Assembly: GCA_031292175.1 (NCBI GenBank)
Contig: JARLHQ010000032.1
Coordinates: 124,001 to 188,000, forward strand
DNA length: 64,000 nucleotides
Direction of reading: 5' to 3'
Source of the DNA: Humidesulfovibrio sp.
GTDB lineage: Bacteria; Desulfobacterota; Desulfovibrionia; Desulfovibrionales; Desulfovibrionaceae
In this document: positions 3,312 to 63,953 of the stretch, piece by piece
How the letters are laid out: each line of letters starts with the position of its first letter
How positions within the stretch are numbered: the stretch's first letter is position 1
Made by a program: the position numbers and the translations under genes
The notes under the pieces: generated by a model
Database searches by the model: none
The model's input: the letters and a program-made list of their open reading frames with translations, nothing else
What the model was told of the DNA's origin: nothing

Positions 3312-5959
3312 GCCTGCTGGCCCAGCTTGTTTCCCTGTGGCGCACCCGCCGCAAGCAGCGCAAAGAGGCCGCCCTGAACTGGATCAAGGCCCGCTACCAC
3401 ATCTTCCGTGTGCTCCTGGCCAACAACGAGCGTGCCCTGGAGGCCATGGCCGAGGCGGACCGGCTGCTGGCTGAGAACGAGCCCTCACGGCTACCGGCGA
3501 CGGTTCTGGACCTGCGCGACACGGTGCTTGAGCTCATCGACGGCCTGAATCGGCTCACGGGCAACGCGCATGTGGGCTTGTACCCGCGCCTGGGGCAGAT
3601 CGAGCGCGCCCTGGATGCGGCCCTGGACAGCTACGCCAGCGCTCCGCGCCGCAAGTGGCTGGACCTGGCCGAGGTGCGGCCGGACATGCGCGAGCAGGCC
3701 GGAGGCAAGGCCCAGCCTCTGGGGGGGCTCATCCGCGCCGGACTGCCTGTGCCCGCTGGCGTGTGCATCACCCGCCGCTCCTGCCGGGAATATTTGCGCC
3801 GCGCCAAGCTGGAGGACCGCCTGGCGGCCATCCTGCGCGAGGCCGCGAGCACGAAAATGGACGGGGACGGTGGGCCGGATCTGAACGCCTTGGCCGCGCG
3901 GGCGCGGACCATGATCGCCGCCAGCGCGCCGGACCAGGAGTTCGCGGCCGAACTGCGCGCCGCTTGGGAGCATCTGGCCGGGGGCGCGCCACTCTCCATC
4001 TCCGTGCGCAGCAGCGCGTCCTCCGAGGATGGGGGCGAGCACTCCTTTGCCGGGCAGTACACCAGCGTGCTCGGCGTGCGCAGCCCCGAGGCCCTGGTCG
4101 AAGCCTTCAAGACCGTGCTGGCCAGCGCTTTTTCCGCCCGCGCCCTGGCCTACCGCGCTTTGGTCAACCGTTCCGGGGCCGGGCTCTCGGGTGAGAGCGT
4201 GGATATGGCCGTGCTGTGCCAGCGCATGGTGGACGCCCGCGCCTCCGGTGTGCTTTTCACCGTGGACCCCACGGATACGGGTACTCCAGGCGGAACAGCC
4301 GAAGGGACGGCAGAGGGGAAGGCCGGGCGCATGCTGCTCACGGCGGTGCCGGGGCTGGGCACCCAGGCCGTGTCCGGCCGTGCTCCGGCCGACGTGTTCC
4401 GCCCCAGCCGCGACCCGCGCGTGGAGGACATGGCCGGGACCCCGGCGGAGATCGCCGAGAAGACCGTGCGCGAAGTGCCTGCACCGGCGGGCGGGCTCAC
4501 GCTGCAGGAAGTGAGCGGGCCGGAGCGCATGGCGCCGCTGCTTTCCCCGGACGAGATCAAGACGCTGCGCGACCACGCGCTGCGCATCGAGGCCCTGGCC
4601 GGGCGCCCGCAGGACATTGAATGGAGCGTGGACCACGCGGGGCGAATCTGGATTCTTCAGGCCCGCCCGGCCAAGCTGGCGCACGCGGCGTCTCAGGCGC
4701 AGGCCGCTGGCGCGGCCGCTGGCGTGGTGCTGCTTTCCGGCGGCGTAAGCGCCTCGCCGGGCAAGGCCGCAGGAAAGCTGGCCATCGTCCGCACCCGTGA
4801 GGATCTGGACACGGCGGCCAAGGCGCCCCGCCCCGTGGTGCTCGCCCTGCACCAGAGCATGGTGGATGCTGCGTCGCTGGTGCCGGAGGCGGCCGCTCTA
4901 TTGGTCGATATGGGCAATCCCCTGGACCATCTGGCCGGGCTCTCGCGCGAGTTGGGCATCCCCATGATCACCGGCCTGGGCGAGGCCACCACGGCGCTGA
5001 CGCCTGGCGACTGGGTGCTGGCCGACGCCGATCAGGGCCGGGTGGTGTCCGTGGACCCGCTGCTGTGGCAGAACGCGCCCCGGCCCGCCCCGCGCCCGGC
5101 CGCCGTGCAGGACGACGCGGCTCTAGCCGTGCGCGGCCTCGTGCTGCCGCTCAATCTCACCGATGCCTACGGTCCCACGTTCTCGATCCTGGAGGCCAAA
5201 AGCCTGCACGACCTGGTGCGCTACACCCATGAGAAGGCGGTCATGGCCTTGTTCGAGGCGGGCGACGCCATCGCCGAGCAGACCTTCACCCTGGTGCACC
5301 GACTGAAGGATCCCGCCGGGCTGCTCTTCCTCATCATCGACCTGGGCGGCGGGCTGGCGCCGGGCTGTCCCACGGAGGTCGCGGCCTCGGACATCCTGAG
5401 CGCGCCGCTGGCCGCCCTGTGCCGGGGCATGGCCACGCCGGGCCTGCGCTGGGGGACGCCGCCACCCATCGCCGGACTCTCCGGACTTATGACGCGCGGC
5501 TTTCTGGACGCCCGCAGCGAGCGTCCCGTGGGCAATCCCAACTACGCCCTGGTGGCGCGCGACTATCTGAATCTGAATGCGCGCGTGGACTACCATTTCG
5601 CCCTGGTGGACTCCGTGTGCGGCGCGAACCCCCGCGAGAATTCCATCCGCTTCCGCTTCAAGGGCGGCGGCACGGTGCGCATCCAGCGCGAGCGCCGGGC
5701 GGTTTTTGTGGAGCAGGTGCTGCGCGCGCAGGAGTTTTTCACCACCCGCCAGGGGGATATGGTTACAGCGGTCCTGACCGAGGGCTCGCGCGAGACCATC
5801 CTGGCCAAGCTTGAGATGCTGGGGCGGTTCCTGGGCTTTAGCCGACTGCTTGACGCCGTCATGGTCACGGACGATATGCCGCGCCGCGTGGCCGAAGCCT
5901 TCCTCTCGGGCGACTACGCCTTGGACGGGCTCAGCGTGGATGTTTCCAGCGCGCAGTAG
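3308..5959 (+). CDS. PEP/pyruvate-binding domain protein (PEP-synthase-like)
   Basis: SISVRSSASSEDGGEHSFAGQYTSV; WILQARPAK; GNPLDHLAGLSRELGIPMITG; shared C-terminal domain; ATGA overlap with previous gene. Confidence 0.85.
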   Translation: MSLLAQLVSLWRTRRKQRKEAALNWIKARYHIFRVLLANNERALEAMAEADRLLAENEPSRLPATVLDLRDTVLELIDGLNRLTGNAHVGLYPRLGQIERALDAALDSYASAPRRKWLDLAEVRPDMREQAGGKAQPLGGLIRAGLPVPAGVCITRRSCREYLRRAKLEDRLAAILREAASTKMDGDGGPDLNALAARARTMIAASAPDQEFAAELRAAWEHLAGGAPLSISVRSSASSEDGGEHSFAGQYTSVLGVRSPEALVEAFKTVLASAFSARALAYRALVNRSGAGLSGESVDMAVLCQRMVDARASGVLFTVDPTDTGTPGGTAEGTAEGKAGRMLLTAVPGLGTQAVSGRAPADVFRPSRDPRVEDMAGTPAEIAEKTVREVPAPAGGLTLQEVSGPERMAPLLSPDEIKTLRDHALRIEALAGRPQDIEWSVDHAGRIWILQARPAKLAHAASQAQAAGAAAGVVLLSGGVSASPGKAAGKLAIVRTREDLDTAAKAPRPVVLALHQSMVDAASLVPEAAALLVDMGNPLDHLAGLSRELGIPMITGLGEATTALTPGDWVLADADQGRVVSVDPLLWQNAPRPAPRPAAVQDDAALAVRGLVLPLNLTDAYGPTFSILEAKSLHDLVRYTHEKAVMALFEAGDAIAEQTFTLVHRLKDPAGLLFLIIDLGGGLAPGCPTEVAASDILSAPLAALCRGMATPGLRWGTPPPIAGLSGLMTRGFLDARSERPVGNPNYALVARDYLNLNARVDYHFALVDSVCGANPRENSIRFRFKGGGTVRIQRERRAVFVEQVLRAQEFFTTRQGDMVTAVLTEGSRETILAKLEMLGRFLGFSRLLDAVMVTDDMPRRVAEAFLSGDYALDGLSVDVSSAQ

Positions 5960-49857: not shown

Positions 49858-49922
49858 AAAGGGCTTGCGAATCGCTTCGCAAGCCCTTGATCTATCGAGT
49901 GGTGGAGCTGGAGGGGATTGAA
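49858..49922 (-). repeat. 65-bp repeat copy B
   Basis: aaagggcttgcgaatcgcttcgcaagcccttgatctatcgagtggtggagctggaggggattgaa; includes a strong hairpin gggcttgcgaa/ttcgcaagccc. Confidence 0.9.
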
Positions 49923-50354: not shown

Positions 50355-50570
50355 CTACGCGCTATCTGCCTTGCCCTCCAGCACGGGGACGTCATACCGA
50401 GTGAGTCCGGTGTCAAAGTCCATCAGGTTCACAGCCAACACCGCAAAAGGGGCGTTCTTCTGCCCGACGACCTGCGTTAGCCTGAGGGTCTGACCGAAGT
50501 ATAACCATCCGCCCCACCCTGCCAGAACAAGGAAAACCCCGAGGGCAATGAGCCAATGGATACGTTTCGT
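50355..50570 (-). pseudogene. Open frame encoding a small TM protein without a canonical start codon
   Basis: TKRIHWLIALGVFLVLAGWGGWLYFGQTLRLTQVVGQKNAPFAVLAVNLMDFDTGLTRYDVPVLEGKADSA stop; protein-like composition with a TM helix; no ATG/GTG/TTG between the upstream stop and the TM segment. Confidence 0.5.
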
Positions 50571-50590
50571 CTACAACGACCACGCTTGCG

Positions 50591-51289
50591 CTAGCGGACT
50601 TCTAACAAGGCAAATCGTACCCCGTCATCCCTGGTCACCACACGGAAGGACTCTAGCCGTGTGGAGGCCAACTTACCGTTAACCATAAGGTTCGAGGTCA
50701 CCGTGTATGTGCCGTCCTGGAAGCGGGGGGGGATATGCACAGTGTGTACGGTCTCGTAGCCGCCGCCGCCATCGCTGGAGGGCAATTCCTTGCTGAATTT
50801 TTGAAGAACGTCGTCGCCCAGCTTGAGCTGCACGTTCTCGACCACGCTGTTCACAGCGCTCACGCGTCCGCGCACCACCTGGGCCTGGGACTGGATCACA
50901 AGGTCCTCGCCCTTCTGCAGCACGCCGCTGGCCGGAACGATGGTGGTTGTGTATTCCTGGACCACTGGCTCAGCAGGCAGCGAGCCCTTGTTGGCGCTCT
51001 TGAACTGCATTTCCACTTCGGCAGCGGTTTTGGTCTGCCGCGACTCGGAGGTCACGGCAAGACACAGGCCACCTGCGAGGAGACCTCCACCCGCCGCACC
51101 GATAGCCGCGCCGGACACCTTATTCTTGGACAGCAGGGCACCGATAAGCGCCCCGGCCAAGGCTCCGCCCACGGCGGCGCCGACGCACTTGCCATCGTCG
51201 CTGGAGCTGCCTCCCTTGGTAGTCGCGCAGCCAGAGACCAACAACGTCATCACAATTGTCAGAGCCACAAGTCGTTTTCCAACAAACAT
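50591..51289 (-). CDS. Glycine-zipper lipoprotein
   Basis: LTIVMTLLVSGCATTKGG lipobox; AAVGGALAGALIGALLSKNKVSGAAIGAAGGGLLAG. Confidence 0.85.
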   Translation of the reverse strand: MFVGKRLVALTIVMTLLVSGCATTKGGSSSDDGKCVGAAVGGALAGALIGALLSKNKVSGAAIGAAGGGLLAGGLCLAVTSESRQTKTAAEVEMQFKSANKGSLPAEPVVQEYTTTIVPASGVLQKGEDLVIQSQAQVVRGRVSAVNSVVENVQLKLGDDVLQKFSKELPSSDGGGGYETVHTVHIPPRFQDGTYTVTSNLMVNGKLASTRLESFRVVTRDDGVRFALLEVR

Positions 51290-51315
51290 GCTCCCCCCCT
51301 CAGTTATTGTTGCCG

Positions 51316-52491
51316 CTATTTCACCGTCATCTCGTCCATTTGACGTTTCTTCTCCACCTCGCTCCCTGCGATGATTCGCAAGGCTTCGGCCTTCACCTTT
51401 GGATCCCCGCCAGCAAGGCTCAAAATAGATTCCGCCATCTGGCGTCCGATCTTCCAGTTTCCGCCATCCACCTCGTGCTTCGCCTTCTTGAGTTCGGCCA
51501 AGGCTTGGGAATTGTCCGTCCTCGGTGGCTGTGCTGATTTGCCCCCTCTCTCATCTTGGGACGGATTGGAGGCTATGTGCGACTTGACGAGTCTGACAAT
51601 GCTTGAGGCCTGGCTGCAACCAGTCGCTTGGGCATCGGCAGCCGCCTGCTGCGCGACCACCACGTCATTTCTGGCCAGAGCTTCGCTGGCAGTGACGTAG
51701 AGGCCCTGGCAAATGCTGTTCTTGTTGGCCTGGGAATTGGTGATGGCTTGGAGCTTCTCCTGGGCCTGACGATTGCTGATGTCTTCACTCATGATGGTCT
51801 TCAGCTTCTTTGCTGCGGCTTCGGCCTTCCCCTGCCTTGTCAAAGACTCCGCATCGGCCATGAGGCCTGTATGACGCTTGAGCACATCCTGAATGCGTCC
51901 GAGCAAGGCGCTGGCCTTCGGATTGTTGGTATCCTTTGCGAGCAGCTTGTCCAGGTAGCCTTTGGCAGTTGCCATGTCCCGATTGATAAAAGCCGTCTCA
52001 GCCATGGCATAGGTTTCCACTGCCCTGTCTGTTCCGGTGCCGTTCAGCATAAGATAGCCCAGACCCAACACCATGATCAGGCTTACGGCAATGACTGCGG
52101 GCTTCAACCACGGGCTGACCGGGCTAGGCGCATCGTGCTTGGCCCTGCTCTCCCCGGTCTTATCCTCCACAGGACTCGCCGGCGTGACGATGGGCTTTTC
52201 CACCACCGGAGGCGGAGGAGGAGGCGTGACGATGGGCTTTTCCACCACCGGAGGCGGAGGAGGAGGCGTGACGATGGGCTTTTCCACCACCGGAGGCGGA
52301 GGAGGCTTTTTCCAGGACTTGGAGCTGGGCAACGCGACAACGGGCTGGGCTACGCCGCAGAATGGGCAGTGCAGCACCTCGCCGTAGAGCGTTTGCGAGC
52401 AGCTCGTGCAGGCGTTCTGGCCTGAAAAGGGGGGGGTGTCCGGTTTCATCTCGTTTTCTAGCATCTCTTTCACACGTTGGAGCTGCGGCAC
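51316..52491 (-). CDS. Zinc-ribbon membrane protein with Pro-rich linker, one TM segment and a TPR-like periplasmic region
   Basis: CTSCSQTLYGEVLHCPFCG; PPPPPPVVEKPIVT repeats; VIAVSLIMVLGLGYLML; AKGYLDKLLAKDTNNPKASALLGRIQ; start uncertain (52491 GTG or 52464 ATG). Confidence 0.75.
   Translation of the reverse strand: MPQLQRVKEMLENEMKPDTPPFSGQNACTSCSQTLYGEVLHCPFCGVAQPVVALPSSKSWKKPPPPPVVEKPIVTPPPPPPVVEKPIVTPPPPPPVVEKPIVTPASPVEDKTGESRAKHDAPSPVSPWLKPAVIAVSLIMVLGLGYLMLNGTGTDRAVETYAMAETAFINRDMATAKGYLDKLLAKDTNNPKASALLGRIQDVLKRHTGLMADAESLTRQGKAEAAAKKLKTIMSEDISNRQAQEKLQAITNSQANKNSICQGLYVTASEALARNDVVVAQQAAADAQATGCSQASSIVRLVKSHIASNPSQDERGGKSAQPPRTDNSQALAELKKAKHEVDGGNWKIGRQMAESILSLAGGDPKVKAEALRIIAGSEVEKKRQMDEMTVK
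52181..52306. repeat. 3 tandem copies of a 42-bp unit inside the zinc-ribbon gene
   Basis: ggcgtgacgatgggcttttccaccaccggaggcggaggagga starting at 52181, 52223 and 52265; identical apart from the end of the last copy. Confidence 0.95.
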
Positions 52492-52544
52492 GGCCTATTG
52501 CCCAAGTGCCGCGCCGCAGTGACGGATTGCAGTCGGCGCGCCGG

Positions 52545-55500
52545 CTACAGAGGGGGCGGAGTCATGCCCAGGGGAGGCGGTGCCATGAACAGGCAAGCCA
52601 ACTCAGGCACCTGGCTGGCCGGCAGCCAGGCTGGTAGGCCCGGCTTCCATACCTGGGTCGTCAGTGCCAATTGGCCGGTGCCCACCAGGGTCCTCAGTGA
52701 GGCAAAATCGTAGGGGCCACTTTGCTGCATGTTCACCGCCACCCACCATTCAGGCACAGAGAGTGGAGGCGGCGCAATGAAGCCAGTGATTGGTGGGATG
52801 CCCTGCCCCAACCCCTGCATGGGCTCAGCTCCAACACATAGGCTGCGCAACCACCCTGTGTCGAAGAATTCCTTTCTGACCCTGCGCTTGCAACGGTCCG
52901 CCCCGTTTGGCTCTGCCGGCTTCACTTCCCAGGGAATCGCGTCCAAGTTGGAATCGGGTACGATCTCGGTCCACTTCTCAAAGGAGCGAGTCACATCCGC
53001 CCAGCCTTCGCCCCATTCCGCAAGGCACGTCTCAGTGAGTCGGAGGTCACCATCGGTGAGCCTGCGGTTGCGGGCCAGTTTGGTGAGCTCCGCGTGGAGC
53101 ATGGCTGCCACGCCATAAACAAAGCCTGGGCGATCCTCGTCCTTGCCGCGTTCCGTGGTGTGCGTGGCAGGAGAATATGTCTCACGCTGAAAATATTCAG
53201 CAAGGTGAGCAAGGGCTTGAAGCTGCAGGGGATCAAGTTCGTCCAGAGCCTTGTTGACAGCATTTTCCACATGCGGACGGAATTCCGAAGGCAGGCCGTC
53301 CAGGCGGAAGGAGCGCTCGTTGCCCAGGTTCTTCCAATCGCCCCGGCCGAAGTCCAACTGGTACAAACCTGGGGGAGTGGTCTTCCGGTGGTTGCGCACC
53401 AGCTTGCGCAGCATCACCGCCAGCAGAAACAGACGTATGTCCGTAGCGGCATGCTTGAGCTCCAGGGGCGTCGGTACCATGGGGTGAACAAAGAGCGTCG
53501 GGTCTTTGTGGGTGTGCAGCGGCCATCTTTTGCTCTCCAAGCGGTACTTGGTGCGCCAGTCCCCTAGGCCCGTGAGCACGCTCAGAGGGAAGCCGGAGAT
53601 CTCACAATAGCACACGGCACGACCGGAGATGCCGGTTTTCTTGAGTTGGAATTGCGTGGCCGTGATGCCCGCGTAGGTAGGGATGCAGGAGTGCAGTTCA
53701 TCAAGCATGGGCTGCCAGTCTTCGGGATTCATGACACCCATGAAACACTTGAAGCGGTCTTGCCTCAGGGGCACGTCGGCGAAGTTCGCGTCGATCCAAG
53801 GCATGGCAGCCTTTAAAAATTCAGTAAACTTGCTCATCCTGGTGCTTGGGTCCATGCCCATGAGCTTGCGCACCAGAGGGTCTTGCCGTTTCTGCGGGGA
53901 CTGAGCCTGCTGTGCCAGCCGTGCATGGGCTGCGCGCATGCGCAACTTGTTCAGCAGTTTGGCCTTGCCGTCGGCAGAGCGCAACATGGGGAATATTTTT
54001 TGGGAGCCCTCGAAGTCCTTAAAGGCCTCGTTTGCCCAGGTGCGCAGGAGCTTGGGCTCGGGCAGCTCTTGGGGCGTGGTTTCCGCCTCGATGTAGATGT
54101 AGTTGGCGTGGACTTTGTCCTTGCTGTCCTCGATGGTTTTGGAGGTGCGGGTAATTTCTTTGCTCACGGCCAAAACATCGCGGCGGCCAGCATGGAATTC
54201 GGCCAGCAAACCGCTGTAAATGGCCTCATTCTTGTCGTCCGTGCCGTGCTTGCCACCAATGAGCGTGGTCAACTCACGCAGCACGTCGGCGCCAGTGGTG
54301 GCGGCCACGCTACGCGCATGAAAGCGCAGGTAGTCGCCCAGGTCCTGTTTCAAGTCATCAAGATACATGGAGGCCTTCTTAATGTCCGGACCGCTCAGGA
54401 AACTGCCCTTCACCGCGTTGGCCACATTGTTCAGGGTCTCCTCTATTTGGTTTGTCTTCAAAGCGTCGCGGATCTTGCGGTACCGCTGGGCGTTTTCCTC
54501 CAGTTGAAGGGCCAATCCAGTGGTGGGGCTGGCAAAGGCTGTTTTGATGAGTTCTGACAGGGAGAGCACGTACTCCAACCCGCCATAGTCGCGGTTGTCC
54601 AGGTACTCGTAGAGTTTCTGATGCAAGATCGTGTACTTCTTGGCGCGCAGCTCTTTGCCCCTGTTGGTGATGCGCTCCTCGCACGTGATGGACATGGTGT
54701 CCTGGTTGCGAATCACGTCCTGCTCCAAGGCCGGGATCTTTTCACGCAGCAGACGAGCCCAGTCCTTGAGGCTGCCCTGGTCCGCCTTGACCCCCTCCAC
54801 CAGAGCATTGAGCTTCTGCTGGATGGCCTCTTCGATGCCGCCGTGGTCGTCATGCAGCAGGTCAAGGACCAATTGGTTGTCCACAAAGGGCGCGCAAAGG
54901 TTCTGCAAGTCCGACTTGTTTCCAAAGTTTGGGAACTGGCTAAAAGTGTAGGATGAGAGCTTCAGGTGCTCACGCATGAAGTCATCGCGCTTTTGGTCCG
55001 TTGCCTGCAACGCCGACTTGTCCGTGGAGGCAATGCCGAAGAACGCCTCCAGCATGGCTGCGGCAAGACAATACTCATCCTGGTCCTGCTGCTGAGACTG
55101 CTTGGTGTCCATGATGGACTGGCCGAACGCTGAGTAACCCATGCAGTAGGAAAGCCGCATGGTGGCGCCATAGTCTGCTGGCAGGGGCGGGTTGTAGGCC
55201 ACGGCCTTGTGCTGCTTCTGGTTTACCGAGGCCGAGCGTTTGGAGCTGGCGAAGTCCTCACTGGCGAAGTCCTCAAACAAGGCGTCTGCAGTCATCTCAT
55301 AGACGTCCTGAACGTCCTTTAAGGCATCGCGGCCCATATTGGCCGACTCAATGAGATACACATCCGTAAAGGGCGTGTGGTCCAGGACTTGCGGCCCTTC
55401 AAAATTGTCCCAGCAGCCCACATACTGCGGGAACTTGTTCATGCAGGTTTCAAGTTCCATGAGCGCGGCATAACCGTTGGCCTTGGTGCGATCAGCGTTG

Positions 55501-56249
55501 GCTTTTTCATATCCGCGGGGGGTGAAGAGCATGAGCTGCACATCGTAGTTGCCGCCGCCGAAGATCTTGGTGGCCAACACTTTGGCCAGCCAGCCGAAGT
55601 CCAGGAAGGAACCCGAGCCCGTGCCACCGGCGCAGGAGCCAACCACCACGATGCGCACCCGAGCGTTGTCCACCTTCAGCCCCAGGCGGTCCAATTGGGC
55701 CTGGTTGCTGCGGTTGGCTTTGAGGCTGTTCAACTTCTGCTGGATGTTGTCGCGGACGGTGGGGTAGACGTCATAGAAGTAGAGCCGCGACACAGCCCGT
55801 AGCTGTCCCGCGCCGTCGACCAGGTTCAGGTCCTTGACTATTTCCCCGGTGAGGGGACACCACGCCTCGATATGGGGGTACTTGTTCAAGTCGTCTTCAC
55901 TGCGCAGATACTTCATCGGGTCCAGGGTGGTGACGATGCGGTCCTGCTGGGGCAGCTTCACAAGCTCAGCAAGGGGATCATCCACAGCGCTGCGGTCGCC
56001 CTCGAGCACTGCGGAATGGTCCATGTCGAAGTGGAGGAACTCTGCGACCGGGAAGGCCTCCAGGGAATCGATACGGGTCTGCCCGCCCGCTCCCCAGTTA
56101 GCGTGCAGGATGCGCCTGCGCACGCGTAAAATGACTTCCATGCCCGTACCGCCGATGCCAATGAACAGAACCGGCTGTAGCTTCCTTGTCACTTGGTTCT
56201 CGTTGCCCAGGCTCTCGGCACCGGCGGCTCCCTCAGCATTTCCTACCAT
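52545..56249 (-). CDS. Tubulin/FtsZ-like GTPase (Tubulin_2-type) with C-terminal GYF_2-like domain
   Basis: LFIGIGGTGMEVILRVRRRI; VVVGSCAGGTGSGSFLDFGWLAKVL (GGTGSGS signature); C-terminal WWVAVNMQQSGPYDFASLRTLVGTGQLALTTQVWKPGLPAW. Confidence 0.85.
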   Translation of the reverse strand: MVGNAEGAAGAESLGNENQVTRKLQPVLFIGIGGTGMEVILRVRRRILHANWGAGGQTRIDSLEAFPVAEFLHFDMDHSAVLEGDRSAVDDPLAELVKLPQQDRIVTTLDPMKYLRSEDDLNKYPHIEAWCPLTGEIVKDLNLVDGAGQLRAVSRLYFYDVYPTVRDNIQQKLNSLKANRSNQAQLDRLGLKVDNARVRIVVVGSCAGGTGSGSFLDFGWLAKVLATKIFGGGNYDVQLMLFTPRGYEKANADRTKANGYAALMELETCMNKFPQYVGCWDNFEGPQVLDHTPFTDVYLIESANMGRDALKDVQDVYEMTADALFEDFASEDFASSKRSASVNQKQHKAVAYNPPLPADYGATMRLSYCMGYSAFGQSIMDTKQSQQQDQDEYCLAAAMLEAFFGIASTDKSALQATDQKRDDFMREHLKLSSYTFSQFPNFGNKSDLQNLCAPFVDNQLVLDLLHDDHGGIEEAIQQKLNALVEGVKADQGSLKDWARLLREKIPALEQDVIRNQDTMSITCEERITNRGKELRAKKYTILHQKLYEYLDNRDYGGLEYVLSLSELIKTAFASPTTGLALQLEENAQRYRKIRDALKTNQIEETLNNVANAVKGSFLSGPDIKKASMYLDDLKQDLGDYLRFHARSVAATTGADVLRELTTLIGGKHGTDDKNEAIYSGLLAEFHAGRRDVLAVSKEITRTSKTIEDSKDKVHANYIYIEAETTPQELPEPKLLRTWANEAFKDFEGSQKIFPMLRSADGKAKLLNKLRMRAAHARLAQQAQSPQKRQDPLVRKLMGMDPSTRMSKFTEFLKAAMPWIDANFADVPLRQDRFKCFMGVMNPEDWQPMLDELHSCIPTYAGITATQFQLKKTGISGRAVCYCEISGFPLSVLTGLGDWRTKYRLESKRWPLHTHKDPTLFVHPMVPTPLELKHAATDIRLFLLAVMLRKLVRNHRKTTPPGLYQLDFGRGDWKNLGNERSFRLDGLPSEFRPHVENAVNKALDELDPLQLQALAHLAEYFQRETYSPATHTTERGKDEDRPGFVYGVAAMLHAELTKLARNRRLTDGDLRLTETCLAEWGEGWADVTRSFEKWTEIVPDSNLDAIPWEVKPAEPNGADRCKRRVRKEFFDTGWLRSLCVGAEPMQGLGQGIPPITGFIAPPPLSVPEWWVAVNMQQSGPYDFASLRTLVGTGQLALTTQVWKPGLPAWLPASQVPELACLFMAPPPLGMTPPPL

Positions 56250-56282
56250 GGCATGGTCCCCCCACGTTGACTATTTTACTGC

Positions 56283-56735
56283 TTAGGAGCGTTTCCCGCT
56301 CACGAACATGAGCACCAGCGCCACGAGGCTAATGACGCCCAAGGGGCCCATGAAGAGAGGAGTGAGGAACTTCACGCTGCTCAAGATGGCCAAGACCGAG
56401 GCGGTTGCCAGGGAGGCCAGGAAAATGAAGAGCCACCACCCGGCGGCAGTGGCGGCTCCAGGAGGTACCCGACGACCCGCGAGATGGTTGGCGTAGGCGT
56501 TCTTGGCGAAGAAGAAAGCCACGAGCAGCACCAGCAAGATGCCGGCGGCAATGGCGTAGTCTCTGGGCTGCGGCCCCAAGGGCACCTCGATGATCCCCTC
56601 CCCGGTGATGGTGAGCTTCCCGTTGCTGTCCAAAGTGGCCCCCCCTACAATCGGGGGGCTTGCGGCCTGTCCCGGCTGCTGGCTCTGGGGGGCTGCCTCA
56701 GGGATAACAAAACCAGTGTTCGCCTTCTCTGCCAT
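56283..56735 (-). CDS. Small protein with Pro/Gln-rich N-terminus and three TM segments
   Basis: YAIAAGILLVLLVAFFFAKNAY; WWLFIFLASLATASVLAIL; LFMGPLGVISLVALVLMFVSG. Confidence 0.7.
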   Translation of the reverse strand: MAEKANTGFVIPEAAPQSQQPGQAASPPIVGGATLDSNGKLTITGEGIIEVPLGPQPRDYAIAAGILLVLLVAFFFAKNAYANHLAGRRVPPGAATAAGWWLFIFLASLATASVLAILSSVKFLTPLFMGPLGVISLVALVLMFVSGKRS

Positions 56736-56786
56736 GTCCTGACTCCTTCTCTTGCGCTGTCGTTTTGGTGGATTGCGACTCTTCCG

Positions 56787-58277
56787 CTACCTGCTAATGC
56801 TCACAGTATGGCCCTCAGTGACGGACTGCACCGTGGGCTGCCCTAAGCCCCGGCGCAGCACGGCGATCTTCTGATCTTGGCCGGAATAGATGTCCACACT
56901 GGAAAACCGGGCCAAGCTGACGCGACGGGGCGTTCCGTCCACAAAGATATTATAGGAGTCGGCCGTGCCGCGGCGCGAGAGCAGGAAGAGACCAGCCCCG
57001 CCCAAGCCCAGCAGCAGCGCCATGGCCAACAGCAGGGGGTAAAGCGGGTAGTTCACCCGCACCAGCAGGGGAATGCGCCCCTCAGAGGCAGTGATGTTGG
57101 CCGGAGGCAGAAAAACGTCCGGCAGAGGGTCGCCGGGGAAAATCTCCTGCATCCTTTTGCGGAAGTCGTTATCCAGGGAGAGCTTCTGGTTGTCCAGGCG
57201 CACAAGGATCTGCGCTGGAACTGCAATGCTCCGGCCAGCCTGCAATAGCCCTTTCAAGGTCCAGGGACTTGGCCGGTCGATGCTGATGGGGATAGTCACG
57301 CGCGCTTCCACGGCCTTGCCCGGGGCCAGATCGCTGATGGTGTCCGGCGCAATCTGAAGCGGGCTTGAAGCGGCAGCAGTCGCAACCTGGGCGGAGACCG
57401 ATGCGGACTTGATGACATAGGGGTAAAAGAGGTTCTCCAACCCAGCAACCACCAGGGCCAAGGGCTGACGCGACTCTGCGTCAACGTCCACAACCAGTGT
57501 GCGTTTGTCGTGGCCAAGGCTTGCAGAGACGCCCGAAGCGTCCAGGACCTTGCGCGGCATAATGCGGATGGCGTCCCTGTCCAAGGGCTTCAGCTGGGCC
57601 GGGACCTGGGTGAAAATCTTCGCCAGGCACCCGCTGTCAAGGAGCGCCTGCAGGTGCTTGTCCGCCGGGGGGCCATAGGCCAGGGCGTAGACCATAAGCC
57701 CATTCGCCGTGTAGGACTTTCCTACCACAGGCATAGCCAGGGGGAGCGTCAGAGTCCTGGCGATGGCTGGCTGGTTGTGTACCAAATCATAAAATTCGCG
57801 GTTGCGGGCAGCTGTCTGCGCATTGTTGTTGGGACTGTTCTTATTGTTGGTGAAGATCCAGATGATGCCCGGCTGGCCGTGAAATGTCGCGGAGATGGTC
57901 TTGATCACCGCCTCATTGAAATCCGTATTCGCCAGGGTCTTGCCTTCGCCTTTGTGCGCCAAGCCAAGTTGGTCCAAAGCCTGCCGGACGCCGGAGGCGC
58001 TCGGTTCTTGGTAGATCTGGCGTGGGGATTCGTTGCCTGGAGCAGACTGGTTGAACGCCAGCACAGAGATCACGTCGCCGGGAGAACTCACAGTCTCTGC
58101 GGTATGCGCTACAAGAGTCTTAAACGGTGACGCTGGGTCGACAAAAAATGGTTCCATCCAGCCGGAATTCTGAACCAGAAAAGCCTGTTGCATGCACTGG
58201 CCCTCGGCGGTCCACAGGCCAAGGACCAGGGCCAGAACCAGAGCCCAAAAGGCGCTTCCATGTGTTTTTCTGCGCAT
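56787..58277 (-). CDS. vWA-like extracytoplasmic domain protein anchored by a C-terminal TM segment
   Basis: Signal peptide; QAFLVQNSGWMEPFFVDPASPFKTLV; IIWIFTNNKNS; TM YPLLLAMALLLGLGGAGLFLLS, then a short cytoplasmic domain. Confidence 0.7.
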   Translation of the reverse strand: MRRKTHGSAFWALVLALVLGLWTAEGQCMQQAFLVQNSGWMEPFFVDPASPFKTLVAHTAETVSSPGDVISVLAFNQSAPGNESPRQIYQEPSASGVRQALDQLGLAHKGEGKTLANTDFNEAVIKTISATFHGQPGIIWIFTNNKNSPNNNAQTAARNREFYDLVHNQPAIARTLTLPLAMPVVGKSYTANGLMVYALAYGPPADKHLQALLDSGCLAKIFTQVPAQLKPLDRDAIRIMPRKVLDASGVSASLGHDKRTLVVDVDAESRQPLALVVAGLENLFYPYVIKSASVSAQVATAAASSPLQIAPDTISDLAPGKAVEARVTIPISIDRPSPWTLKGLLQAGRSIAVPAQILVRLDNQKLSLDNDFRKRMQEIFPGDPLPDVFLPPANITASEGRIPLLVRVNYPLYPLLLAMALLLGLGGAGLFLLSRRGTADSYNIFVDGTPRRVSLARFSSVDIYSGQDQKIAVLRRGLGQPTVQSVTEGHTVSISR

Positions 58278-58287
58278 GGGGGCCTCC

Positions 58288-59811
58288 TTATTGGCCGTTG
58301 CCCTGGATGGTCCACCCAGGCAGATATTTAAAGTCCGGGTGGTACAGGAAGAGCTGCCCTCGGAAGATGAAAGTAGTAGCCTCCCAAGGTTTATGAAGCT
58401 TGGCTACGTGGAAACCCTGGCTGTCCGGCTGCTGGCGGTGAATCTGAAAGCGCGTGGGGATACTTTCCTCGATCTGTAGGAAACCCGAGGCGCTGCCCAC
58501 ATAGTTTGCCCGAAGAACCAGCAAGTCCCCGTGGGCGACGGACTCAAGCAAAGGGACAACGGCCTCGTCATTGTCGTGGGCACCGAACTGAACTTTTTCC
58601 GGGTCATTCCACGGGGAGCCCAAAAGTCGCTGTTCCACCTTGATGCTACTCTTGCCCGTGTGGTGGCGCGCCCCGGTGGCCTTGTGCAATTCTCCGCCGC
58701 CGTGGCCCAGGAGTACGTACCCGTAGCCAAATTCCTCCTTCGACTCCTGCCCGATCTGGGTTTGGAGCCAGAGCCTGCCGTCGGACTCGTCACAGTGCGG
58801 TGGCCCGAACTCTGTCACAGGCTGGCCAGCGCTCTCGGCCCAGGGCAAAAAGGCGAAGATGTTGCGCCTTGAATTGGCCACCACCTGCCCGACGCTGGAG
58901 ACCAAGATGGCCTCATGAGGAGTTGCCACGGCTTGGCTCCAGTCTGCCTTCGGGATTCCTGAAACGCATTCATTGGGCGATGCTGTGGCAGAGGAAACGC
59001 TCACCAGGGTCAGGGTTTCTTGCCCGGCGTTGGCCATGAGCCCATAAACCCTGTCGCCATTAGGCAGCAGCGGGGAAACGCAGGTGCCTGGGGCCAGCAC
59101 CTCGGCCCGGTAGGTAAGGGTAAGCGGATCCATGCGCACAGTCAAAATACCTGAATCCGAAGGCCAGAGGAGCACTGTGTCCCCGGCAAGGTTTTCGGCC
59201 TCTGGCCACCACTGCGTTAAGGGAAGGCCACCTGCACCAAGGAAGGGCATGCCTTGATCCGTGGGATTCAGCTCTGCCCACAACTGCGCTGAAGGCACCC
59301 AGCAGTGGATACAGCCGTTCAGTGCATCCAGCGAGAACAGGAAGGAGTGGCGCAAACCACAGCAGGCGACCAGAAAACTGCGTCCGCCCGGAGGAGGCAT
59401 GACCAGTTGTGCGTCCGGATCGGCCGGCCATTGGGCGTGCTCGGTAAGTTTGAAGGCCAACTGCGTCAATCTGCCGCCCCGCAGCAAGCCTGCGGTGTTG
59501 TGCTGGCAGCCGCTAGGAGGAAGCCATGTCTGTTGGCTGAGGGGGGCTGGCGGAAGCAGCTTATGGCCAGTGGTCGGGGAATGCTTGAAGGACGGAGGGA
59601 AAAAGACCGCTTCTTCAGCGGCTCCGTCCGCCTCCGAATGGCTGCAGGGACAGCCCAAGGCGTATGCCACCTCACTGGCCCCCCAGATGGAAGCCACATC
59701 TCGCCCGCCATGACTCCTTAGCCTGAATGCCCCGGAGTCCAGGCAACGTGTCCAGACTGTTTGCGAACTCTCGTCAATCCAGGACTCTACAGGACTCAAA
59801 GCACCCTCCAA
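58288..59811 (-). CDS. Large orphan protein, possibly beta-propeller-like
   Basis: Beta-rich repetitive segments (SFLFSLDALNGCIHCWVPS; TVLLWPSDSGILTVRMDPLTLTYRAEVL); TTG start at 59811 or 59799; first gene of the tubulin-like operon. Confidence 0.6.
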   Translation of the reverse strand: MEGALSPVESWIDESSQTVWTRCLDSGAFRLRSHGGRDVASIWGASEVAYALGCPCSHSEADGAAEEAVFFPPSFKHSPTTGHKLLPPAPLSQQTWLPPSGCQHNTAGLLRGGRLTQLAFKLTEHAQWPADPDAQLVMPPPGGRSFLVACCGLRHSFLFSLDALNGCIHCWVPSAQLWAELNPTDQGMPFLGAGGLPLTQWWPEAENLAGDTVLLWPSDSGILTVRMDPLTLTYRAEVLAPGTCVSPLLPNGDRVYGLMANAGQETLTLVSVSSATASPNECVSGIPKADWSQAVATPHEAILVSSVGQVVANSRRNIFAFLPWAESAGQPVTEFGPPHCDESDGRLWLQTQIGQESKEEFGYGYVLLGHGGGELHKATGARHHTGKSSIKVEQRLLGSPWNDPEKVQFGAHDNDEAVVPLLESVAHGDLLVLRANYVGSASGFLQIEESIPTRFQIHRQQPDSQGFHVAKLHKPWEATTFIFRGQLFLYHPDFKYLPGWTIQGNGQ

Positions 59812-60429: not shown

Positions 60430-61455
60430 CTACCCATTGTCGTGTCCCGCGCGCTGCCAGTCGAAGAACGCCTGCACATACCGCCCTGTGACCACGCTCC
60501 CCATGTCGAAGGCCGGGAAGCCCTCGGGCATGAACTGTCCGGTCTGGCTTTGATAGACTTGCCGCGAGAGCTTCTCCAGGGCCGGGACCAGGGTTTCGTC
60601 CCACAAGGTCCGGCGGGCGTCCTCCGGAAGATCATGCACGCGGCAGGCCAGGGGGCGCAGGGCAAAAGCCAGGCAGGCCCCATCCTCCAGCAGGGGGCAG
60701 ACCCCGCCGTTTTGGGCGAGGTCCGCGCCGCGCTTGATGACCGCTGCGCGCTGGGCGCGGGTAAGGGCGGCGCCCAGCGCCGTGTTGATATGCACAGCCT
60801 CCCCGAACATGAGGCGCAAGGCCCTGTGGCAGCAACGCGTGTGCCCCTGGCCGCACCGCCCGGCGCTAATGTGGCCTGCGGCCTGCTCCGCAATATCCAC
60901 AAGCTGCTGGTAGTCGGCAAAAAACGGGCGCATGTCCACCTGGCAACGATGCTCCAGCGAGGGCTCGCGGACCTTGAGGCGCATGGCCTTCTTTCCGTAG
61001 CGCCGCACCGCGCGCCACTGCAGGAAGTTCGCCGGCTGGGAGCGCAGCGCGCGCAGTGTCTTCCAGGCCTGAAAATGCCCCAGCCCCCGGCGCAGCAGGT
61101 AGGCGTTGAGCACCGTTCCCGTGCGCCCAATGCCATGGCGGCAATGGATGAGCACCTTCTTGCCCAGGTAGATGGCCTCGTCGAGCCAGGCCAGGGCTTT
61201 CTCCAATTCGGCCAGATCGGGGGCCTGCTCGTCTTCGGTGGGCAGGTGGTAGACCTCAAAGCCCTGCTTGGCCTCAATTTCGTGCAGGTCCGTAAATTCT
61301 CCGCAAAGGTTCAAGATGGCCCCGACACCTTGCTCGCGCAGGGAATCCAGGGCGGCGTAGGACATGGGCGCAGGGCCCACTCCCAAATGGTCCGTCACCC
61401 AGGTCAACGGGTAGGCAGCGTTCCGCAATGGGGGCATGCGCGTCTCCGGCTTCAT
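60430..61455 (-). CDS. Dual-specificity phosphatase domain fused to a YkgJ-type Cys-cluster domain
   Basis: VLIHCRHGIGRTGTVLNAYLLRRG (HCX5R); CPLLEDGACLAFALRPLACRVHDL. Confidence 0.85.
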   Translation of the reverse strand: MKPETRMPPLRNAAYPLTWVTDHLGVGPAPMSYAALDSLREQGVGAILNLCGEFTDLHEIEAKQGFEVYHLPTEDEQAPDLAELEKALAWLDEAIYLGKKVLIHCRHGIGRTGTVLNAYLLRRGLGHFQAWKTLRALRSQPANFLQWRAVRRYGKKAMRLKVREPSLEHRCQVDMRPFFADYQQLVDIAEQAAGHISAGRCGQGHTRCCHRALRLMFGEAVHINTALGAALTRAQRAAVIKRGADLAQNGGVCPLLEDGACLAFALRPLACRVHDLPEDARRTLWDETLVPALEKLSRQVYQSQTGQFMPEGFPAFDMGSVVTGRYVQAFFDWQRAGHDNG

Positions 61456-63953
61456 TGGCCTTGGTCCATTTCGGACAGGAAGTCCTCGGCGAGGCGCTGG
61501 GCCTGGGCCGCATCGGTCAGGCGCAGATCCAGGCGCTGTGTGCGGACGAGCAGGCGGCCCAGCATGATCAGGGAGCGGCGGACGTCCGCCTCCTCTGCGC
61601 GGGAAAGGCGGGCGTTGAGCATGTCGCCCCGGACGCGCACCACGAAGCCGCTCCCCTCAAGCACCGTGGCGATGACGCTGGCACGCCGCCGCCGCTGTTC
61701 GGGCAGTCCGCCGCCGCCCATGAACCTGAAGCAGATATAATTGGCCTCCGCCCTGGGGCCGCAAAGACAGTCCAACATAGCGAAATGATACCCGAAGCGC
61801 ACAAGTAAATGCAAATAGTCCGCGGACAGCAGGCCATAGCTGGCCAACAGGCGGGAGTCTTTGCGGAAGATCCCGGCGCTGACCCGGTCGAATTCCGCCC
61901 AGTCACAGCAGAACCCCGTGTCCGCCCATGTCTCTCCGGAGCAGGCCAAGCCTTGCCAGAGAGCCCGCATCGGCGCGCTGGCGATATCCTCCGGCCGCAC
62001 CTCGTCTCCGCGCCCGGACGCAGGGGCGAGCCCTCCGCCCAGGTCCAGCAGAAAGAGCGTAAAGGCGAGGCCCGTGCGCAGCCGCCTGGCTTTGCCCAGG
62101 CCCCGGTCCGGGCGCGCATCCGTCCCGCCGTTCTCGGTCGGCCCGACCATTTCCGCCACGGCTCTCTCGTGGCAGAAGCGCACCAGGTCGTGCAGGGAGT
62201 GGCAACCTTCCGGACGGAAGTCCGGAGCCTCGGGGTCCGTGAGCCCCAGGTGGCAGGTCTGCCTGGCCAGTGCTGCAAAGCGTTCGGCCAGGCGCTTGCG
62301 CTGCTCTTCCATACGTTTCGCGGGGGCGTCCCGCAGTGCCGCCGAGCATCCGGCAAGAATCCGGCCCGCATCTCCATCCACGGTGACGAGCAGCCCCTCG
62401 GGCAGGCGCGCCCGGATGTTCTTCAACCCGGAGACAACGGGCACCCGGGCTTCTCGCGCCACGGAGGCAAAGTGGCTTGCCCGGCAGCCGGACCGGGCCA
62501 CCACGGCCACCACTCGGTCGGTACCGCGGGCCAGGGTCGGCGTAAGACAGTCCACCGCCAGCACGGCTCCGGCCGGAACACGGGCGATGTCGTCGCCTGC
62601 GCCCAGGTGAAACACCGCCCCGCAGCCCACACCCGGCGCGATGGGGTTCAGACCCTCGGCCAAGGCCCGCGCGCCTGAACCGCCCAAGGCTTCGGCGTCA
62701 TCCGGCCAGACCACCTCCTGGTCGGCCTTGAGGCTCTGCGGGGCGCTCTGATTGCGCGACTGCAAAACATAACAGCGGCCGTCCGGATCCCGCGCCCACT
62801 CGACCTCCTGCGGCCTCCCGAACACGGACTGCAACACCAGGCCGATCATCACAAGCTCTGAGAGTTCCGTCTGTCCGAGTTCAACGTCCGCATCGCCCGA
62901 CACATCGAGAATTTGTGCGGGCAGCCGGCGGGACAGGCGGTACGTGCGGGCTTCGCTCGTGCCCGAGACCAGGGCATCCGCCAAGCCTGCGGAAGCAAAT
63001 ATGGACACGCATTGCCCTGCCTTGCCCGGCGCGCTCTCGCAGCTATGCAGCACCCCGGCCGCCGTCGCCCGGACCATCGGCAGGACGAGCACCGCCATGG
63101 GGGCGCACTCGTCCGGCAGGCCGCAAGTCACGCGATAGGTCACGGCCCTGGGCCGATATTTTGAGGCGACAACACGCCGGTAGGCCTCCACAATATGTTC
63201 CGGCGGCACATCAAGTTCGCTGGTGTACTGCCCGGCGAAGGATCGTTCGCCGTCCTCCGCCACGGCGGAACTGCGCACGGCGAGGCGCCTGCCCGCGAAG
63301 CCACTGCCCGCCACAGCCTCGCGCAAGGCCCGAGCCAGATCCTCCGGAACGGAAGCCCCGAGCACCAGCGCTTGCATCCCGACGCAGAGTGGGCCGACGC
63401 GATCTGGCCGCGAAAGGTCCACCTGCCGCAACAGGCGCTCCAGGCGGCGTTGCAGGCCGCTGGCCGTCAAGAAATGTTGAAAAGCGCCGGTGGTGACGAC
63501 CAGACCGGGCGGCACCGGCAACCCGGCCCGCTGCACAGCGGCCAGATTGGCGGCCTTGCCCCCGGCTGTTTCCGGTCGGCCTAGGGCCTGCGCCAGCGGC
63601 AGGACAAACGGCCTACCGCTTTTGGAGAGCCGGGGTGGAAGCTGCTGCGCCAGCCCCAAGCGGATTCTTGCCAACGTCCCGGCCAGCCCCGGATAGCCTC
63701 CGGGATGCATGGCCAGAAGCCGCGCCACCACATTTCCTACAGCCTCGGAGAGCTGGCCGCACAGCCAGTTTATTCTGGCCGGATCGACCTGGCGCGCTCC
63801 GGAGAAGATTTCCTCCAGTTCAGCCACCAGGAGCAGGCTTTGCTCATCCGCCGCAAGCAGGGCCTTGAAGGCTTCGTAACGGTCGCGCAGGCGGCCTTCA
63901 GGGAAGAAGATCGCCTGGCCCCAGCGAGAGAGTATCCGCGACAAGAAACCCAT
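61452..63953 (-). CDS. PEP/pyruvate-binding domain protein (PEP-synthase-like)
   Basis: RLAVRSSAVAEDGERSFAGQYTSEL; GCRASHFASVAREARVPVVSGL; C-terminal FGYHFAMLDCLCGPRAEANYICFRFMGGGG; overlaps the phosphatase gene. Confidence 0.9.
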   Translation of the reverse strand: MGFLSRILSRWGQAIFFPEGRLRDRYEAFKALLAADEQSLLLVAELEEIFSGARQVDPARINWLCGQLSEAVGNVVARLLAMHPGGYPGLAGTLARIRLGLAQQLPPRLSKSGRPFVLPLAQALGRPETAGGKAANLAAVQRAGLPVPPGLVVTTGAFQHFLTASGLQRRLERLLRQVDLSRPDRVGPLCVGMQALVLGASVPEDLARALREAVAGSGFAGRRLAVRSSAVAEDGERSFAGQYTSELDVPPEHIVEAYRRVVASKYRPRAVTYRVTCGLPDECAPMAVLVLPMVRATAAGVLHSCESAPGKAGQCVSIFASAGLADALVSGTSEARTYRLSRRLPAQILDVSGDADVELGQTELSELVMIGLVLQSVFGRPQEVEWARDPDGRCYVLQSRNQSAPQSLKADQEVVWPDDAEALGGSGARALAEGLNPIAPGVGCGAVFHLGAGDDIARVPAGAVLAVDCLTPTLARGTDRVVAVVARSGCRASHFASVAREARVPVVSGLKNIRARLPEGLLVTVDGDAGRILAGCSAALRDAPAKRMEEQRKRLAERFAALARQTCHLGLTDPEAPDFRPEGCHSLHDLVRFCHERAVAEMVGPTENGGTDARPDRGLGKARRLRTGLAFTLFLLDLGGGLAPASGRGDEVRPEDIASAPMRALWQGLACSGETWADTGFCCDWAEFDRVSAGIFRKDSRLLASYGLLSADYLHLLVRFGYHFAMLDCLCGPRAEANYICFRFMGGGGLPEQRRRRASVIATVLEGSGFVVRVRGDMLNARLSRAEEADVRRSLIMLGRLLVRTQRLDLRLTDAAQAQRLAEDFLSEMDQGQ

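Follow-up and report, generated by a model that had tools for sequence, protein, structure and literature searches.

Results

A 64,000-nucleotide stretch of Humidesulfovibrio sp. DNA (contig JARLHQ010000032.1), the whole of which we call the window, carries on its minus strand a six-gene cassette centered on a tubulin-superfamily GTPase, TUB. We found that TUB is a member of the Tubulin_2 family (PF13809), which is the FtsZl1 family of Makarova and Koonin (2010; PMC2875224), and that the cassette is a well-defined, newly described form of FtsZl1 operon. The reading that we favor, at about even confidence, is that the six genes encode an envelope-spanning machine built on this GTPase, which would remodel or brace the membrane or envelope and would not serve cell division.

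The Cassette Is an Operon

The cassette occupies window positions 50591–59811. Its six open reading frames, separated by intergenic gaps of 10, 51, 33, 53, and 26 bp, are listed here in the order of transcription, followed by a structure downstream of them.

58288–59811, minus strand: PROP, 507 amino acids (aa), soluble and Trp-rich, with an N-terminal zinc-ribbon remnant; the orthologue is the first gene in 22 loci and in Azospirillum
56787–58277, minus strand: VWA, 496 aa, with a signal peptide or N-terminal anchor, a predicted periplasmic alpha/beta domain, a beta-rich region, a C-terminal transmembrane helix, and a short cytoplasmic beta tail
56283–56735, minus strand: TM3, 150 aa, with a Pro-rich N-terminal tail carrying a GFxLPxP-type motif, and three transmembrane helices
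52545–56249, minus strand: TUB, 1234 aa, with a Tubulin_2/FtsZl1 GTPase domain, a helical middle, a C-domain, a GYF_2 domain, and a PPPL tail (from Pfam and a structural model)
51316–52491, minus strand: ZNR, 391 aa, with a zinc ribbon (CxxC...CPxCG), a Pro-rich linker with PPPPPPVVEKP repeats, a transmembrane helix, and a predicted periplasmic helical or TPR-like part
50591–51289, minus strand: GZIP, 232 aa, a glycine-zipper lipoprotein with a module-specific C-terminal domain of about 140 aa
49859–49888, minus strand: terminator-like hairpin of 13 pairs with a T-rich tail, lying some 700 bp downstream of the last gene (pattern only)

An earlier description of this locus, made from the letters alone (the sequence-only reading), had proposed six consecutive minus-strand genes with short gaps around a tubulin-like GTPase; the open reading frame calls agree with the first part of this claim, and Pfam and fold comparisons with the second. 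The motifs it had listed (GGTGSGS, the GYF tail, the CxxC...CPxCG zinc ribbon, the PPPPPPVVEKP repeats, a VSGC lipobox, and a glycine zipper) are all found in the open reading frames. Its observations stand apart from a seventh frame, the start coordinate, the metal ion-dependent adhesion site (MIDAS), and a family match for the propeller. Because TUB matches Tubulin_2 and GYF_2 with E values of 3.4e-50 and 9.3e-16, and because 22 independent loci share this gene order, the operon is not a chance arrangement.

The Central Protein Is a Tubulin_2 GTPase Fused to a GYF Domain

TUB passes the curated Pfam Tubulin_2 cut-off with 171.7 bits against 27, and Tubulin_2 was matched at E <= 0.001 in all 24 members of the module clade. 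Its parts are as follows.

55110–56168, minus strand: Tubulin_2 GTPase domain, residues 28–380 (Pfam 3.4e-50; fold match to tubulin, FtsZ, CetZ, and TubZ)
55611–55631, minus strand: AGGTGSG nucleotide-binding loop T4, residues 207–213 (across 22 members, AGGTG and the final G do not vary)
53940–55109, minus strand: helix-rich middle, residues 381–770 (missing from an 810 aa paralogue)
52599–52748, minus strand: GYF_2 domain, residues 1168–1217 (Pfam 9.3e-16)
52548–52580, minus strand: proline tail PPPLGMTPPPL (a PPP tail follows GYF in all 21 members examined)

The GTP loops T1 and T4 are intact in TUB and conserved among 22 members. An AlphaFold2 model of residues 1–1150, built from a 24-sequence alignment, had a mean pLDDT of 82 and a pTM of 0.71, with long helices at 472–709 and a helix-rich C-terminal region, and its 50 best PDB fold matches were exclusively tubulin, FtsZ, CetZ, or TubZ. 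A tubulin fold for the product of 52545–56249, on which the sequence-only reading had staked its proposal, is thus supported by sequence and model. TUB has the predicted fold and the GTP loops in common with FtsZ, CetZ, TubZ, and tubulin, but it is much larger, lacks a Pfam FtsZ_C or Tubulin_C domain, and lies in an envelope operon; Tubulin_2 proteins have been treated as divergent FtsZ-like proteins (PMC9871819). As the genome holds a separate, ordinary FtsZ, the role of the cassette is unlikely to be cell division.

In a tree, the module tubulins separate from the other sampled Tubulin_2 proteins as a single branch with support 0.93. GYF_2 was found in 23 of the 24 clade rows scanned, the exception being the window's own row, which had been trimmed before GYF for modeling; 8 Tubulin_2 proteins from outside the clade all lacked it. 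A sequence search of the PDB with TUB at E <= 0.001 returned a sole match, between the GYF tail and AgmX/GltJ (7z3c), and the NCBIfam GltJ model scored 26.8 bits against its cut-off of 450, over the GYF part only.

Pseudomonas MF4836 (L074:15383-17815) and P. chlororaphis 14D6 (L077:15383-17815) encode an 810 aa paralogue of TUB directly after the lipoprotein gene. In this protein the GYF domain is kept and the middle region (roughly profile positions 376–763) is missing, so the helical middle is a separable insert. The paralogue has also lost otherwise invariant residues (G34N, G209S, T210Y, and D217Q), which leaves the degenerate loops GNTG and GSYGSG. These substitutions suggest a GTP-dead partner subunit, which may form a two-subunit polymer with TUB or cap it.

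The Gene Set Is Inherited Together

We scanned about 85,000 species genomes with tubulin proteins alone, as a three-sequence alignment; the same scan with the single window TUB sequence gave no match. The alignment identified TUB relatives at 23 named loci: in Duganella, Massilia, an Oxalobacteraceae metagenome-assembled genome (MAG), Rhodoferax antarcticus, a Betaproteobacteria MAG, and two Azoarcus; and in a Hydrogenophilales MAG, Rhodanobacter fulvus, a Thiodictyon MAG, Endozoicomonas, Parendozoicomonas, nine Pseudomonas, the Deltaproteobacteria genome PowLak16_MAG11 (the contig of L058, from the window's phylum), and Azospirillum TSO35-2. All 22 loci outside Azospirillum have PROP, VWA, TM3, and TUB in this order and on one strand. 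ZNR comes next in 21 of these, the contig ending in the remaining one, and a glycine-zipper lipoprotein follows in 14. As the partner genes were absent from the query, this synteny is not circular.

The tree distances of TUB, VWA, PROP, and TM3 agree strongly (r 0.87–0.97), also when Pseudomonas is left out. Together with the gene order in 22/22 loci, this agreement bears out the co-inheritance by which the sequence-only reading had proposed to be judged. For ZNR the agreement is lower (0.57–0.79), since good conservation is confined to its zinc ribbon.

Partner Proteins

Two motifs and the membrane anchor of VWA, and the best-conserved portion of ZNR, lie at the following positions.

58155–58172, minus strand: QNSGWM in VWA, invariant in 21/21 members, where a vWA domain would have its MIDAS motif DxSxS
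57825–57851, minus strand: TNNKNSPNN in VWA, near-invariant, where a vWA domain would have its strand-4 motif TDGxxN
56970–57041, minus strand: C-terminal transmembrane helix of VWA
52357–52410, minus strand: zinc ribbon of ZNR, residues 28–45

VWA had been described as a vWA-like membrane protein. It is a transmembrane protein, but QNSGWM replaces the standard MIDAS, and both this motif and the NN(K/R)NSP block are conserved among VWA members where the vWA metal site would fall. Pfam VWA was matched by 3 of 21 members, with a best E value of 0.083; a fold search with a model from two sequences gave TM-scores of 0.2 or less by query, PDB entries that contain vWA-type proteins (8s05 and 8jtl) appearing only among weak matches; and a profile-profile comparison with the vWA proteins of other Tubulin_2 operons was not significant. 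By sequence and model, homology to vWA thus appears weak, and we use "vWA-like" as a label.

The better start of PROP is a TTG at 59799, 7 nt downstream of GGAGG. No transmembrane helix was predicted in PROP, and no Pfam family or PDB match was found for it. Its internal repeats amount to one weak pair (hhalign probability 34); no family match stands behind the label "propeller-like" given to it earlier. The N-terminal zinc ribbon is intact in Endozoicomonas, Azospirillum, and PowLak16_MAG11; its cysteines have been lost in other lineages, the window included.

The Pro-rich N-terminal tail and three transmembrane helices of TM3 are present in all members, and most ZNR members have a single transmembrane helix. 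Searched by itself, the C-terminal part of GZIP matches 13 orthologues (E 4e-21 to 1e-10). In PowLak16_MAG11 (L058/L070) a glycine-zipper lipoprotein sits in the same position with a nonhomologous C-terminal part, and a second coiled-coil lipoprotein then follows; the lipoprotein slot can therefore be filled by different proteins. The predicted topology of the module proteins is conserved across members, and the products are predicted to lie in the cytoplasm, inner membrane, periplasm, and outer membrane, in line with the spread over cytoplasm, inner membrane, and envelope suggested earlier.

Distribution and Genomic Surroundings

Among 348 genomes from the window's order, only 8 contain a Tubulin_2 protein of any kind, and the 14 other genomes of its genus contain none. 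In the TUB tree, Rhodanobacter (a gammaproteobacterium) groups with Azoarcus (a betaproteobacterium) with full support, from which we conclude that the cassette moves horizontally. Seven of the nine Pseudomonas loci have an upstream neighbor gene in common, which points to long residence in that genus. In most Pseudomonas a group of genes for small secreted proteins, together with a gene for a large one, lies upstream of the module (e.g., L075:3152-6249), the Pfam families in the flank being DUF2388 and DUF7844/Lnb_N.

The flanking genes vary by genus and are largely concerned with transport, housekeeping, and signaling. PADLOC matches in the flanks are mostly to single or generic models, except for caspases beside the Azospirillum copies, and outside Azospirillum we saw no defense-island context. 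Both Azospirillum modules (L012:7439-23057 and L083:13703-15211) adjoin caspase-family genes; the former lies on plasmid p2, with OmpA-family genes, DUF4384 genes, and a type IV secretion locus nearby. A different Tubulin_2-vWA pair lies inside a BREX-like defense locus (DUF1156, Swt1-type HEPN, and brxL) on a Meiothermus taiwanensis plasmid (L014:1-14909).

We found no TUB relatives in viral contigs, no matches to VWA or TM3 in plasmids, and none to VWA in phages. Searching TUB against phage records gave only two weak partial matches. A human fecal contig labeled as phage ("Bacteriophage sp.," MT836542.1:6934-7581) contains a Tubulin_2-type match.

Within the window, the G+C content of the operon is 58–61%, against mostly 62–71% elsewhere. 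Relatives in the genus keep the gene pair P0008-P0007 and diverge beyond it; a clean empty insertion site was sought within the genus and not found. The hairpin at 49859–49888 is a candidate for the end of the operon. The sequence-only reading had begun the operon at 50355, which overshoots the last supported gene by about 240 bp, and had placed a seventh small transmembrane frame at 50355–50583. The two open reading frames there encode 28 and 56 aa, are not obviously transmembrane, and have no counterpart in relatives, and the seventh gene was dropped. On the other side, a gene for a dual-specificity phosphatase fused to a CxxCxxCC domain (60430–61455) forms a two-gene unit with a PPDK-like gene (61452–63953), and several genomes of the genus retain both genes together. 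The latter and 804–5959 encode PPDK_N/PEP-utilizer paralogues, a family with about 10 matches in the genome and, toward the left end of the window, a tandem array.

Discussion

A Proposed Scaffold Spanning the Envelope

From sequence, synteny, and predicted topology we infer tethering, polymerization, and a function as follows. TUB would assemble under GTP control beneath the inner membrane, where contacts between GYF domains and proline segments (in the ZNR linker, the TM3 tail, or TUB's own tail) would tether and cross-link it. The VWA-like protein would couple the state of the periplasm to TUB, the proteins with a single transmembrane helix would link the scaffold to the periplasm, and the lipoprotein GZIP would reach the outer membrane.

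The link between FtsZl1 families, membrane remodeling, and vWA partners that the sequence-only reading had cited matches the published prediction of vWA-linked membrane remodeling (Makarova and Koonin, 2010; PMC2875224). Like the FtsZl1/vWA operons, the cassette combines a Tubulin_2 GTPase bearing a helical C-terminal extension with membrane partners and a vWA-like neighbor, in a genome with a separate FtsZ. Unlike them, it has a GYF fusion and a fixed gene set of its own (propeller-like, vWA-like without MIDAS, three-transmembrane, zinc ribbon-Pro-transmembrane, and lipoprotein). The FtsZl1/vWA operons usually have an intact MIDAS DxSxS, where VWA of the cassette has the invariant QNSGWM, and frequently, but not universally, a gene for a P-loop GTPase, a Ser/Thr kinase, or an OmpA-domain protein. 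None of the six products is a TRAFAC/P-loop GTPase, protein kinase, or OmpA protein, and OmpA-family genes occur only near one Azospirillum copy. No paper in the searchable literature brings together GYF, tubulin, and this gene set, although subscription papers and the 2010 supplementary tables lay outside the search and a single-locus mention is possible; the open-access papers searched include no experimental study of Tubulin_2/FtsZl1.

Several points weigh against an envelope-spanning machine. A T7-type catalytic region could not be identified in FtsZl1 (Makarova and Koonin, 2010; PMC2875224), which makes filament formation uncertain, and the PDB matches of the TUB model are modest (best E 2.8e-4; TM-scores 0.30–0.48 by target). 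The folds of VWA and PROP are unproven. Binding of the GYF tail to the Pro-rich linker of ZNR, as proposed earlier, is possible, but the PPP tail of TUB and the Pro-rich tail of TM3 are equally conserved candidates, and none of the three proline segments is singled out. Finally, the Azospirillum loci (L012 and L083) have PROP-TM3-TUB with no VWA gene adjoining the tubulin, their zinc-ribbon gene lying nearby (with a PEGA domain in L012), and some members lack the lipoprotein, which means that not every spanning part is indispensable.

Alternative Explanations

A role in biological conflict, either antiphage or self-sacrificial, is unlikely. The tubulin GTPase would here be a switch whose activation by a periplasmic or cytosolic trigger would allow envelope damage by the membrane proteins. 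Kaur et al. (2020; PMC7159879) described GAP1-N2 conflict systems with GAP1 GTPases that contain tubulin and vWA genes, and these systems also resemble the cassette in their membrane-associated genes, zinc ribbons, and predicted cytoskeleton-like assembly. The patchy, partly horizontal distribution (Rhodanobacter nested with Azoarcus), the caspase genes beside the Azospirillum copies, and the Tubulin_2-vWA pair in the Meiothermus BREX-like locus are consistent with such a role. However, the hosts of GAP1-N2 systems are Actinobacteria and Firmicutes, whereas those of the cassette are Proteobacteria and Deltaproteobacteria, and the cassette contains neither a GAP1 TRAFAC GTPase bearing zinc ribbons nor an FNIII component; it also has no MoxR or VMAP gene and no nuclease, TIR, pore, or NAD-depleting effector. 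PADLOC matched none of the six proteins, the flanks are mostly housekeeping or transport genes, and the upstream neighbor common to 7/9 Pseudomonas loci suggests long residence rather than fast turnover. Stress, defense, secretion, and vesiculation had all been offered as functions by the sequence-only reading; none of them is singled out, and its interpretation holds for the operon, the compartments, and co-inheritance but only weakly for the vWA and the propeller.

It is distinctly improbable that the cassette encodes a membrane-bound signaling GTPase complex in which a tubulin-fold protein works without filaments. FtsZl1 proteins lack a recognizable T7/FtsZ_C region (PMC2875224; PMC9871819), and a paralogue with degenerate GTP loops is typical of regulatory pairs. 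Against this, the fold of TUB aligns with polymer-forming relatives over about 360–390 columns, and the long helical middle and GYF-proline multivalency would favor assembly.

In Myxococcus, GltJ carries a zinc ribbon and a proline-rich linker with a GYF domain on the cytosolic side of an envelope machine. By analogy with these focal adhesions, in which the GltJ scaffold links a cytosolic GTPase to the envelope, the cassette might encode a machine for surface motility, adhesion, or secretion, a proposal that we consider very doubtful. The closest solved and curated matches of the GYF tail are AgmX/GltJ (PDB 7z3c; NCBIfam GltJ), and zinc ribbon, Pro-linker, transmembrane, and TPR-like parts recur in the cassette. 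Here, though, GYF and zinc ribbon are split over separate proteins, the GTPase is of the tubulin type and not a Ras-like MglA, neither MglA nor the other Glt/Agl components have homologues in the cassette, and MotA/MotB-like genes adjoin one locus only (Massilia).

A partition or positioning tubulin of plasmid or phage origin (TubZ or PhuZ type) is highly improbable: the superfamily is the same and one Azospirillum copy is on a plasmid, but nearly all copies found are not on identified plasmids, membrane and lipoprotein partners take the place of a DNA-binding partner, and TUB has no PHROG match, no viral-contig relatives, and only the two weak partial phage matches.

Implications

An envelope-spanning machine is the reading that we retain. 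A more specific form of it, which we put forward tentatively, is a trans-envelope machine in which GTP-driven polymers of the GYF-tubulin, mixed in some Pseudomonas with a GTP-dead subunit, would be held fast at the inner membrane and coupled mechanically to the outer one. We know of no characterized bacterial tubulin homologue with a mechanical role in linking the inner to the outer membrane. If TUB assembles at the envelope, it would represent a new class of bacterial cytoskeleton-to-outer-membrane linkage, and the GTP-dead paralogue would show that subunits can specialize within a tubulin family in prokaryotes. The six-gene set is fixed and self-contained and occurs in several Pseudomonas that are amenable to genetics, which provides a clean system in which to study the function of FtsZl1.

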